A DNA stretch of 41,210 nucleotides from Sunxiuqinia sp. GTDB taxonomy: Bacteria > Bacteroidota > Bacteroidia > Bacteroidales > Prolixibacteraceae. Below, piece after piece: positions 7,138 to 9,228 of the stretch. The stretch covers positions 1 to 41,210 of the forward strand of contig QKCF01000159.1 in NCBI GenBank assembly GCA_003246935.1. The letters are read 5' to 3'. The translations under genes were made by a program, and so were the position numbers. The notes under the pieces were generated by a model, which saw nothing but the letters and a program-made list of their open reading frames with translations, was not told the origin of the DNA and did not search any database. Each line of letters begins with the position of its first letter. Position 1 is the first letter of the stretch.

Positions 7138-8325
7138 ATGGCTAAAGAACATTTTAATAGGGATAAGGACCATGTTAACATTGGTACCATCGGCCACGTT
7201 GACCACGGTAAAACTACCCTGACAGCTGCTATTACAACTGTATTGGCAAAAAAAGGTCTTTCTGAAGTGAAATCTTTCGATTCTATTGACAGTGCACCAG
7301 AAGAAAAAGAGCGTGGTATCACTATTAACACTGCTCACGTTGAATATCAAACAGCTACTCGTCACTATGCTCACGTTGACTGTCCGGGTCACGCCGACTA
7401 CGTGAAAAACATGGTAACTGGTGCTGCGCAGATGGACGGTGCTATCATCGTAGTTGCTGCTACTGATGGTCCTATGCCTCAAACTCGTGAACACATTCTG
7501 TTGGCTCGTCAGGTAAACGTACCTCGTTTGGTTGTTTTCATGAACAAAGTTGACATGGTTGAAGACGAAGAATTGTTGGAATTGGTTGAAATGGAAGTTC
7601 GTGAATTGCTTTCTTTCTACGATTTCGATGGCGATAACACTCCAGTAATCAAGGGTTCTGCTCTTGGTGCATTGAACGGTGAACCAGAATGGGAAGACAA
7701 AGTGATGGAATTGATGGATGCTTGTGATACTTGGATTCCACTTCCTCCACGTGATATCGACAAGCCATTCTTGATGCCTGTTGAAGATGTATTCTCAATC
7801 ACAGGTCGTGGTACTGTAGCAACTGGTCGTATCGAAACAGGTGTTATCCACACAGGTGATGAAATGCAAATCATTGGTTTGGGTGCTGAAGGTCGTAAGA
7901 CTGTATGTACTGGTGTTGAGATGTTCCGTAAGATTTTGGATGATGGTCAAGCTGGTGACAACGTAGGTTTGTTGTTGCGTGGTATCGACAAAAAAGAAAT
8001 CAAACGTGGTATGATCTTAGCTAAACCGGGATCAATCACTCCTCACACTAAATTCAAAGCTGAGGTTTACGTATTGAAAAAAGAAGAAGGTGGTCGTCAC
8101 ACTCCATTCCACAATAAATACCGTCCTCAATTCTACTTGCGTACATTGGACGTAACAGGCGAAATTACGTTGGAAGAAGGACGTGAAATGGTAATGCCTG
8201 GTGATAACGTAACTATCAACGTAGAGTTGATCTACCCAGTAGCATTGAACTTGGGTCTTCGTTTCGCTATCCGCGAAGGTGGACGTACAGTAGGTGCTGG
8301 TCAGGTTACAGAAATTGTTGCCTAA
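7138..8325 (+). CDS. tuf: Elongation factor Tu
   Basis: This 395-residue EF-Tu delivers aminoacyl-tRNA to the ribosomal A site as a GTP complex. The G-domain motifs are complete: GHVDHGKT (19-26), [17 protein letters not shown] starting at Asp81, NKVD (136-139) and GSALGAL. Domains 2 and 3 follow with [12 protein letters not shown] and the C-terminal [15 protein letters not shown]. The G4 motif reads NKVD instead of the commoner NKCD, which is a tolerated variation. It is co-transcribed with the four upstream tRNAs and ends at a strong terminator before secE. Confidence 0.98.
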
Positions 8326-8352
8326 TTCTAGGTAAAAGAAATAAATTGAGAG

Positions 8353-8384
8353 AAGTCCCGGATCCTCGGATTCGGGACTCTTTT
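8353..8384 (+). terminator. Terminator after tuf
   Basis: AGTCCCGGATC and GATTCGGGACT form a long stem with one G-T pair and a tight loop, followed by CTTTT. The T tract ends only 1 nt before the tRNA-like element. Confidence 0.85.
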
Positions 8385-8385
8385 C

Positions 8386-8448
8386 GGATGAAACTCGGCG
8401 GGAGTTTTTGCTGTTTAAAAAGTAAGTTCGACTCTTACTCATCCACCA
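8386..8448 (+). ncRNA. tRNA-like miniature cloverleaf between tuf and secE (degenerate tRNA-Trp?)
   Basis: These 63 nt fold as a small cloverleaf. The acceptor is GGATGA/TCATCC (6 bp). The D-like arm is ACTC-GGCGG-GAGT. The anticodon-like arm is TTTT(T)-GCTGTTT-AAAA(A) with a 7-nt loop. The T-arm is the canonical GTAAG-TTCGACT-CTTAC, and the 3' end is ACCA. There is almost no linker and no variable loop. The loop has C instead of the invariant U33, and no CCA (Trp) anticodon exists anywhere in it. In many Bacteroidota a tRNA-Trp gene lies at exactly this place, so a decayed or rebuilt tRNA-Trp is the simplest reading. A tRNA-mimicking leader of secE-nusG is the alternative. The pairing is seen directly; function is unknown. 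Confidence 0.5.
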
Positions 8449-8469: not shown

Positions 8470-8661
8470 ATGAAACTTAAACTATATTTCGAAGAGGCTT
8501 ATAACGAGTTAGTACATAAGGTTAGTTGGCCTACTTGGAAAGAGTTGCAAAATAGTGCCTTCATTGTAATGGTTGCTTCCTTTATCATAGCACTTGTTGT
8601 ATTCGTAATGGATATCTCGTTTGAGAACATTATGAACTTAGTGTACAGTTTATTTTATTAA
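8470..8661 (+). CDS. secE: Preprotein translocase subunit SecE
   Basis: This 63-residue protein has the single-membrane-span SecE layout: an amphipathic helix with HKVSWPTWKELQNS followed by a membrane segment at about residues 30-50 (FIVMVASFIIALVVFVMDI). SecE clamps SecY in the inner-membrane channel. The short length is usual outside enterobacteria, where SecE has two more helices. It is 18 nt upstream of nusG, the standard arrangement, and 21 nt after the tRNA-like element. Confidence 0.96.
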   Translation: MKLKLYFEEAYNELVHKVSWPTWKELQNSAFIVMVASFIIALVVFVMDISFENIMNLVYSLFY

Positions 8662-8679: not shown

Positions 8680-9228
8680 ATGAGCGAAAACGTAAAAAAA
8701 TGGTATGTTCTTAGAACCGTCGGAGGAAAAGAGAAGAAGGTTAAAGAGTATATCGAAAGCGAAATAGCAAATGCTGGACTTCAGGAGTATGTTTCACAAG
8801 TACTCATTCCAACGGAAAAGGTTTATCAAATTCGTAACGGAAAAAAGATCGCTAAAGAGCGAAATTTCTTCCCTGGTTACATTTTGATTGAAGCTGCCCT
8901 GGTAGGTGAGATCCCGCACATGTTGAAAAATATTACCAACGTGATCGGTTTCTTAGGTGACACCAAAGGGGGAGACCCGGTTCCCATGCGTTTGTCTGAG
9001 GTTAATCGCATCTTAGGACGTGTAGACCAAATGGCAGAAGCTGATGCAGAGGTAAACATACCATATGTTGTTGGTGAGACTGTGAAAGTGACTGACGGTC
9101 CTTTTAACGGGTTCAACGGAATCATTGAGGAGATCAATGAGGAGAAGAAGAAGTTGAAAGTGATGGTCAAAATTTTTGGACGAAAAACACCTTTGGAACT
9201 TAGCTTTATGCAAGTCGAAAAGGAGTAG
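8680..9228 (+). CDS. nusG: Transcription termination/antitermination factor NusG
   Basis: The protein has 182 residues. The N-terminal NGN domain begins KKWYVLRTVGGKEKKVKEYIE and includes RNFFPGYILIEA. The C-terminal KOW domain is at about 125-180 (VTDGPFNGFNGIIEEINEEK). NusG binds the RNA polymerase clamp to increase processivity and couples it to Rho or to ribosomal protein uS10. It lies in the usual place between secE and rplK. A moderate GGAG sits 8 nt before the start. Confidence 0.97.
   Translation: MSENVKKWYVLRTVGGKEKKVKEYIESEIANAGLQEYVSQVLIPTEKVYQIRNGKKIAKERNFFPGYILIEAALVGEIPHMLKNITNVIGFLGDTKGGDPVPMRLSEVNRILGRVDQMAEADAEVNIPYVVGETVKVTDGPFNGFNGIIEEINEEKKKLKVMVKIFGRKTPLELSFMQVEKE

Follow-up and report, generated by a model that had tools for sequence, protein, structure and literature searches.

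The stretch of DNA analysed here, referred to as the window, comprises 41,210 nucleotides of contig QKCF01000159.1 from Sunxiuqinia sp. and carries, in the order also found in relatives, tRNA genes for Thr, Tyr, Gly and Thr, then tuf, a small tRNA-like element, secE and nusG. The open reading frames of tuf (encoding EF-Tu; positions 7138-8325) and secE (8470-8661) both lie on the forward strand with the tRNA-like structure between them; the open reading frame of nusG (8680-9228) follows on the same strand, and secE heads an operon with nusG, ribosomal protein genes and RNA polymerase genes. Just 5' of the element, also on the forward strand, folding reveals a GC-rich hairpin at 8354-8379 with an 11-pair core (AGTCCCGGATC / GATTCGGGACT) followed by CTTTT. 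The stretch around it (8350-8386) folds with a z-score of -4.0, and none of 200 shuffled versions folds as well. The initial annotation had called this hairpin the tuf terminator; it is indeed strong and has a short U-tract, but a terminator scan of the window makes no call at this hairpin.

The element, on the forward strand at 8386-8448 of the tuf-secE spacer, had been described as having all four tRNA arms. Three of them, the acceptor stem, the D-arm and the T-arm, are present at 8386-8444 and pair like the top half of a tRNA, after which ACCA follows. The 5' strand of the acceptor stem, CGGATGA (8385-8391), faces a 3' strand composed of TCATCC (8439-8444) plus A8445 (8439-8445); GGATGA (8386-8391) pairs with TCATCC, and C8385 stands opposite A8445, unpaired in the window and matched by a C-G pair in a congener (locus L011), leaving the window element with 6 of 7 acceptor pairs. 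The D-arm (8393-8405) consists of ACTC (8393-8396), the loop GGCGG and GAGT (8402-8405), and both its pairing and the covariation of its stem speak for it. The T-arm, GTAAG-TTCGACT-CTTAC at 8422-8438, is present as originally reported, and two-sided changes occur in the family at all five of its stem pairs (5/5). The anticodon arm, placed at 8405-8421, turned out to be peculiar to the window: it is a local hairpin, TTTTT-GCTGTTT-AAAAA, that takes T8405 from the D-stem and is not conserved, and the anticodon arm is replaced by a linker (8406-8421 in the window) that measures 3-30 nt in 89 fits of an arm-finder program, the few fits with long linkers or with starts inside the upstream hairpin being misfits. 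The C in place of U33 is indeed found at position 33 of this local hairpin, and a Trp anticodon is absent from the element, as had been noted. The templated CCA (8446-8448) also exists in the window as part of ACCA, but N-CCA in either register is found in only 6 of 85 family elements, and CCA was rejected as a hallmark; similarly, the 6-bp acceptor is real in the window but represents a local register shift from the 7 bp of most of the family. The fourth arm, the CCA and the 6-bp acceptor are thus traits of one member and not of the kind.

Standard searches pass over the element. ARAGORN makes no tRNA call at the element and no tmRNA call in the window, and a tmRNA identity was rejected since the program also seeks tmRNA. 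At the Rfam gathering threshold the element is not called in the window, nor are the elements of four further loci, which rejects membership in a known Rfam family; among weak tRNA-type matches the best is tRNA-Sec, whose 16.3 bits fall short of the cut-off of 47. The element alone folds at a z-score of -1.87 in the window, with 11 of 200 shuffles equally good; its minimum-energy fold differs from the cloverleaf, and alternative single-sequence folds exist. Thus, taken by itself the element stands out from chance only modestly, whereas comparison between sequences of relatives decisively supports its being real, far beyond chance.

This comparison was made in a family coded f1 in our genome set, which was taken as Prolixibacteraceae from the named relatives Sunxiuqinia, Draconibacterium and Puteibacter, all of which have the element; the NusG of the window is 95% identical to that of Sunxiuqinia elliptica. 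SecE was matched in 118 of 140 family genomes, and the spacers of 90 of them were read and 28 left out. The end of tuf lies upstream in 90/90 spacers (tblastn), and in 88/90 a tRNA-like element is located between the post-tuf hairpin and secE. A covariance model (R1), built from 28 elements that are all among the 88 later found, detects the element in these 88 at E-values up to 1.1e-4, and an arm-finder score of at least 45 is reached by 85 of 90 family spacers and by 2 of 450 dinucleotide shuffles; a chance origin was rejected on these two measures and on the covariation counts presented below. Fitted elements come from 22 of the 23 genera of the family. When R1 was applied to the family genomes, matches were obtained in 117 of 140, 7 of them only at tRNA-Trp, so that 110 of 140 remain. 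Among the named isolates, Sunxiuqinia elliptica, S. dokdonensis, Draconibacterium sediminis and Puteibacter caeruleilacunae carry the element, although some of these records are apparently the same genomes as members of the 90. An assembly error, against which the initial annotation had warned, is excluded because other genomes, including these isolates, carry the element; the other suggestion, a tRNA rebuilt by an integration event, finds no support: the neighbours stand in their usual order, on which an integration scar was rejected, and the element is old.

Counts out of 85 leave out five of the 90 spacers, those with a finder score below 46 or no fit: L016, L017 and L019, in which the element is present with an 8-nt T-loop, the degenerate L077, and L073, which has none. 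In L016, L017, L019 and L194 (genus g21, Sunxiuqinia elliptica) the T-loop has 8 instead of 7 bases (TTCGATTT) and pairing is otherwise intact. L077 (genome G051, genus g6; E-value 0.17) has lost the T-loop (TGCAAGG), with its acceptor and D-arm still recognisable, which is apparently a recent breakdown in an otherwise conserved genus. L073, from the sole genome of genus g14 (G102), yields no element even with filters off and over a longer stretch. Its spacer (L073 / L300) is 252 nt long, carries a strong hairpin other than the usual one (GATAGCCCC...GGGGCTATC) a short way behind tuf and is the only read spacer without an element; a single case, it is what might be expected if the two messages were uncoupled in another way. 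In genome G096 a 114-nt stretch (L301:2743-2856; also L064) replaces the usual hairpin between tuf and the element; its GAGGCTGTCCAAAA / TTGGACAGCTTC ends make it look like a small insert with inverted ends, and the tRNA-like element survives next to it. A record titled 'Odoribacter sp.' (L240, PNOH01000048.1) has a Prolixibacteraceae-type element and an 87% identical NusG and is probably misnamed.

The alignment of spacers across relatives, proposed in the initial annotation as a check, revealed two-sided compensatory base changes at every one of the 12 pairs in the acceptor and the T-stem. The alignment used (A1, plain MAFFT) has 79 rows, with duplicates taken out and one row, L038, corrected by hand; these counts, like those for the D-stem below, are independent of the finder's D-arm fit, though the rows were picked by the finder. 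Paired cells make up 90.9%, a share that drops to 32-46% if the partner is shifted by 1-3 columns, and on none of the five covariation measures is the observed value reached by any of 500 shuffles. The D-stem behaves in the same way: among 75 ungapped rows, 52 have ACTC as the 5' strand, 45 of these with a perfect partner, and of the 23 non-ACTC rows 9 have a perfect partner of their own, against a permutation mean of 0.96 and with 0 of 2000 permutations as high. The acceptor has 7 bp in most members, and its first pair (1:72) is AU, UA, GC or wobble in 49 of 72 two-letter rows. Of the 79 rows, 23 lack the acceptor pair at alignment columns 1-81, 15 lack the one at 5-77 and 23 the one at 6-76, partly through U-U pairs of genus g6 and partly through the shifted register of the genus of the window. 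The g6 elements (for example L051-L054 and L056) have CGGTTG opposite CTTCCG, which gives two adjacent U-U pairs, either tolerated or the beginning of decay. In single sequences, the predicted probability exceeds 0.5 for the acceptor in 76/85, for the T-stem in 39/85 and for the D-stem in 38/85, and RNAalifold on the plain alignment recovers the T-stem only. The T-loop reads TTC(R)A in 85/85 fitted elements and the D-loop has GG in 83/85; the arm-finder favours TTCRA loops, GG and perfect D-stems, and the T-loop count leans upward because of the first of these preferences. Judged by this covariation, the acceptor stem, the T-arm and the D-arm are demonstrably kept by selection.

It could be argued that the element is a relic of tRNA-Trp that is not under selection and looks intact by accident, and the genus without the element (L073), the genome with the broken T-loop (L077) and the U-U mismatches in the acceptors of several g6 elements would agree with such a fate. 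This explanation, already disfavoured, is very improbable in view of the two-sided changes at every acceptor and T-stem pair, which no shuffle reproduced, the covariation of the D-stem, the presence of fitted elements in all genera but one, and a T-loop kept in every fitted element next to a highly variable linker. The result that was to tell against the initial proposal, random drift with loss of pairing, is not what is seen; since pairing is kept and not lost by drift, neutral pseudogene decay does not describe the element. The suggestion of a decayed tRNA-Trp is therefore right as to the origin, considered below, but not as to free decay.

Of the features of a canonical tRNA, the element has the 7-bp acceptor, the 5-bp T-stem, the TTCRA T-loop and the D-loop GG, and it has neither the four-arm cloverleaf with an anticodon stem-loop nor U33. 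The features specific to tRNA-Trp, the CCA anticodon and G73, are gone as well, G73 being found in 8 of 85 elements, with the register uncertain in some rows. Across the family neither a shared sequence nor a shared pairing was seen in the linker. ARAGORN calls tRNA-Lys in 2 of 30 family loci and makes no such call in the other 28; these false tRNA-Lys(TTT) calls (L023:1412-1481 and L024:1412-1481) arise because bases of the linker mimic an anticodon loop. They might be taken to mean that the element is an odd tRNA that still functions in translation, whether armless, split or edited, the more so as certain mitochondrial tRNAs lack D- and T-arms (PMC3399842, in the part available). We consider this next to impossible: linkers down to 3-4 nt are too short to hold an anticodon stem-loop, the Lys calls rest on linker bases and are not made at the other 28 loci, and the genome has a normal tRNA-Trp.

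As to the origin of the element, the initial annotation stated that many Bacteroidota have tRNA-Trp at this locus, and this proved correct. ARAGORN finds tRNA-Trp(CCA) in the same interval at all 18 of the 18 loci given outside the family, at 29/29 loci of a set that was picked as model hits and is hence biased, and at 19/20 loci of another set, the other one being cut by a contig end and showing part of the tRNA. A tree built from EF-Tu, NusG and SecE comprises 153 rows. ARAGORN detects a tRNA-Trp between tuf and nusG in 103 of these and none in the remaining 50, of which 48 belong to f1 and 2 to a family coded f82. The 48 f1 tips group in a single clade (support 0.963) from which tRNA-Trp loci are absent, and all 103 tips beyond f1 and f82 have tRNA-Trp. 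The presence of a normal tRNA-Trp(CCA) in the same place at the loci read from other families (save f82) argues that the element is a descendant of tRNA-Trp, and, as far as genome comparison can establish it, the derivation from the tRNA-Trp gene of this very site is demonstrated. Position is the main argument here. The support from similarity is weaker and modest: by sequence score Trp is the top or tied-top tRNA type in 15 of 22 genera and not in 7, including that of the window, in a ranking made without the Lys class, some members of which are false calls on these very elements. Set side by side, the tRNA-Trp of L169, ACGGGTGTAGCTCAACTGGTAGAGC ... GGGAGTTCGATTCTTCCCACCCGTGCAAA, and the L023 element, ACGGATGTAACTCGGTCGGGAGT ... 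GTAAGTTCGAATCTTACCATCCGTACAAA, clearly resemble each other.

The decoding function is served from elsewhere. A search for the real tRNA-Trp, the other check proposed initially, located a working tRNA-Trp gene of the window genome on another contig (G000:C407); tRNA-Trp was found by pattern in 119 of 140 family genomes, and in the single-contig genome G001 it lies about 1.4 million bases from the element along the coordinates. Outside Prolixibacteraceae, a similar element is present in 2 of 3 genomes of family f82. FastTree places f82 apart from Prolixibacteraceae (0.88), but the best tree with the two as one clade has a log-likelihood 4.2 above that of the free quick tree, which missed it, and the test of the one-clade arrangement gives p-AU 0.60 (54 of 153 rows used). 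Among 345 genomes of the class every listed match except that of the window is 70-76 nt long, which is tRNA length, and among 247 genomes of the order the listed matches shorter than 70 nt are those of the window, of G136 (same family) and of G323 (family f82); both scans used stricter filters with 17-23 candidates scored per genome and may miss weak or unusual cases.

The number of copies bears on another possibility, that the element encodes a trans-acting small tRNA-like RNA, as mascRNA or tRNA-Other do, and that the place between tuf and secE merely supplies transcription. A fold kept family-wide in spite of the missing decoding arm would be in line with such a role, and tRNA-Other of Bacillus cereus is presented as a pseudo-tRNA with a role outside translation in the accessible text of PMC3399842. 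However, no second copy was seen: the window genome (G000) has one R1 match, and the second matches in the family scan, where weak ones may be lost, are 70-72 nt long and located at tRNA-Trp. The linker, which would be the likely target-pairing part, has no conserved sequence either, and we regard a trans-acting RNA as distinctly unlikely.

The setting of the element is also conserved. The hairpin is located within 14 nt upstream of the element in 83/85 cases with a median gap of 3 nt; at tRNA-Trp loci a hairpin lies within 14 nt in 76/109 cases, and the median gap is 11 nt (102 loci with a hairpin within 60 nt). The U-tract after the hairpin is short, with a mean of 4.2 T in the last 8 nt. 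Bacterial RNase P favours U before the acceptor, and U directly precedes the acceptor in 67/85 elements, compared with 54/109 tRNA-Trp loci. This U could reflect RNase P, to which the N-1 base matters according to PMC12710915 (as far as its accessible text goes), or simply the terminator U-tract. From the end of the element to the secE ATG the median distance is 22 nt (85 loci). A search for promoters between tuf and the element gave no clear candidate common to the family: TAnnTTTG occurs in 5/85 spacers, with a shuffled mean of 3.0, and a loose two-box pattern of the Bacteroidota promoter type occurs in 3/85 spacers, with a shuffled mean of 0.4 and a maximum of 3 in 200 shuffles. The lack of a clear shared promoter, together with the lack of a scanner-grade terminator in the window, fits read-through from tuf.

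The same setting might accommodate an uncut cis-acting leader of secE-nusG, i.e., a folded 5' structure setting translation, stability or attenuation, perhaps by binding a tRNA-handling protein, for instance EF-Tu. Such a leader would profit from the short distance to the secE start codon, the adjoining hairpin could be its attenuator, the EF-Tu gene is just upstream, and the two-box pattern, as frequent as in the best of the shuffles, could drive it. We nevertheless find it unlikely: a clear shared promoter after tuf is missing, no conserved alternative pairing was noticed on casual inspection, and what is conserved amounts to a generic tRNA top half.

The initial annotation had also suggested a new tRNA-mimicking regulator of secE-nusG that CCA-handling enzymes might recognise; the templated CCA put forward for it is not a conserved trait. 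The explanation that we favour over a regulator, and to which we assign a probability of about one half, is that the relic has been kept as a cutting signal for RNase P and RNase Z that would separate tuf from secE-nusG. It is preferred because the kept parts are those read by the processing enzymes and the lost parts are those needed for decoding, because truncation is tolerated, and because RNase Z is encoded. RNase P, RNase Z and the CCA enzyme read the tRNA elbow, according to the accessible part of PMC4810234, and the acceptor/T stack, the T-loop and the D-loop GG, which these enzymes read, are retained; the anticodon arm and G73, which TrpRS and the ribosome read, are lost, G73 being described as a major Trp identity base in the available text of PMC9976931. 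Bacterial RNase P copes with tRNAs that are heavily truncated and also cleaves certain mRNAs, as stated in the portion of a review that was accessible (PMC4919922), and the RNase Z gene of the window genome scores 306.3 bits against a cut-off of 292.95. Several observations count against a cutting signal, namely the non-cloverleaf minimum-energy fold, the small share of elements with a probable T-stem or D-stem in single-sequence prediction, the recovery of the T-stem only by RNAalifold, the acceptor mismatches, in part U-U pairs, the loss of the element in L073 and that of the T-loop in L077; in addition, the hairpin may end most transcripts before the element.

If the cutting signal is real, its history and operation could be envisioned as follows. 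In an ancestor of Prolixibacteraceae, perhaps shared with one further family, decoding would have passed to a tRNA-Trp gene elsewhere, and the tuf-secE site would have lost the anticodon arm, with the acceptor stem, the T-arm and the D-arm kept by selection. Transcription of the tuf operon would read through the hairpin into the element, the RNA of which would fold into the top half of a tRNA. RNase P would then cut on the 5' side, leaving the end of the tuf mRNA just behind a protective hairpin, and RNase Z would cut on the 3' side, giving a secE-nusG mRNA that begins some 20 nt ahead of the start codon. Between the cuts a piece of about 50-75 nt would be released, as a by-product or, possibly, a small RNA, and a tRNA gene would thus have been reduced to a punctuation function. 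Descent by position, loss of the anticodon arm and compensatory upkeep of the rest are demonstrated by the comparisons above; the cuts are what we infer from them. A more elaborate version, tentative and on the whole rather doubtful, would treat the hairpin and the anticodon-less tRNA as one 3'-end-forming cassette, a bacterial counterpart of MALAT1/mascRNA. RNase P would in that case provide the tuf mRNA with a hairpin-capped end that does not depend on termination, RNase Z would free secE-nusG, and the CCA-tailed tRNA top half would survive as a small RNA that might bind EF-Tu or some other protein that reads the elbow, thereby coupling the output of EF-Tu, SecE and NusG.

The ability of tRNA genes to double as punctuation in long transcripts is best known from mitochondria. 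The Prolixibacteraceae seem to have split the two jobs: decoding moved elsewhere, and the structural half stayed under compensatory selection. This makes the family a natural experiment on the requirements of tRNA-processing enzymes. It also offers a testable example of an ancient tRNA that has become a signal for gene expression, placed at the start of a central operon (SecE, NusG, ribosomal proteins and RNA polymerase). The element is also an annotation trap, as tRNA finders miss it or falsely call tRNA-Lys, and false tRNA-Lys genes may be present at this site in the public annotations of related genomes.

In the literature covered, which does not extend to most subscription papers or to any bioRxiv preprints, no description of such an element was found, and it can be compared with several partly similar systems. 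The tRNA-like domain of tmRNA has an acceptor and a T-arm without a normal anticodon arm, and so does the element; unlike tmRNA, the element has no long insert, and no tmRNA was called in the window. Pre-tmRNA is listed as an RNase P substrate in the accessible part of PMC4919922. In plant mitochondria, t-elements are tRNA-like structures that define the cutting site in a polycistronic transcript, according to the portions available of PMC8003010 and PMC4919922; the element resembles them in being a tRNA-like structure between genes, with the cleavage that we infer in place of an observed one, and differs in its location on a bacterial chromosome and in being clearly derived from a tRNA gene that occupied this site. 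The tRNA-like pieces at the 3' ends of MALAT1 (mascRNA) and MEN beta (NEAT1; menRNA) are a further parallel (PMC9976931 and PMC10869381, as far as accessible): mascRNA is cut off by RNase P just behind an end-protecting structure and, in the same sources, has no conserved anticodon loop. A potentially end-protecting hairpin likewise lies immediately 5' of the tRNA-like piece here, at the short distance found in 83 of 85 elements, but a vertebrate nuclear non-coding RNA and a triple helix are involved there, and a bacterial mRNA and a hairpin here.

The most direct comparison is with the tRNA-Trp(CCA) genes that lie between tuf and secE in other Bacteroidia. The element shares with them the interval, the strand, the order of the arms and the short way to secE; it differs in the absence of the anticodon arm, the loss of G73 in most members, the closer hairpin, and the letters of the acceptor and T-stem, which are rewritten with the pairing kept. 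A 2026 survey of bacterial tRNA-Trp mentions tufA, secE and nusG in the legend of a figure about tRNA-Trp loci and, according to its accessible text, left out pseudogenes and truncated tRNAs (PMC13092985). The nearest bacterial parallel that we found is tRNA-Other of Bacillus cereus, which is also a bacterial tRNA relic and, in the available part of PMC3399842, has a role outside translation; that relic has a Trp anticodon and flanks a genomic island in the same account, whereas the element described here has no anticodon arm and lies in the tuf-secE junction throughout a family.
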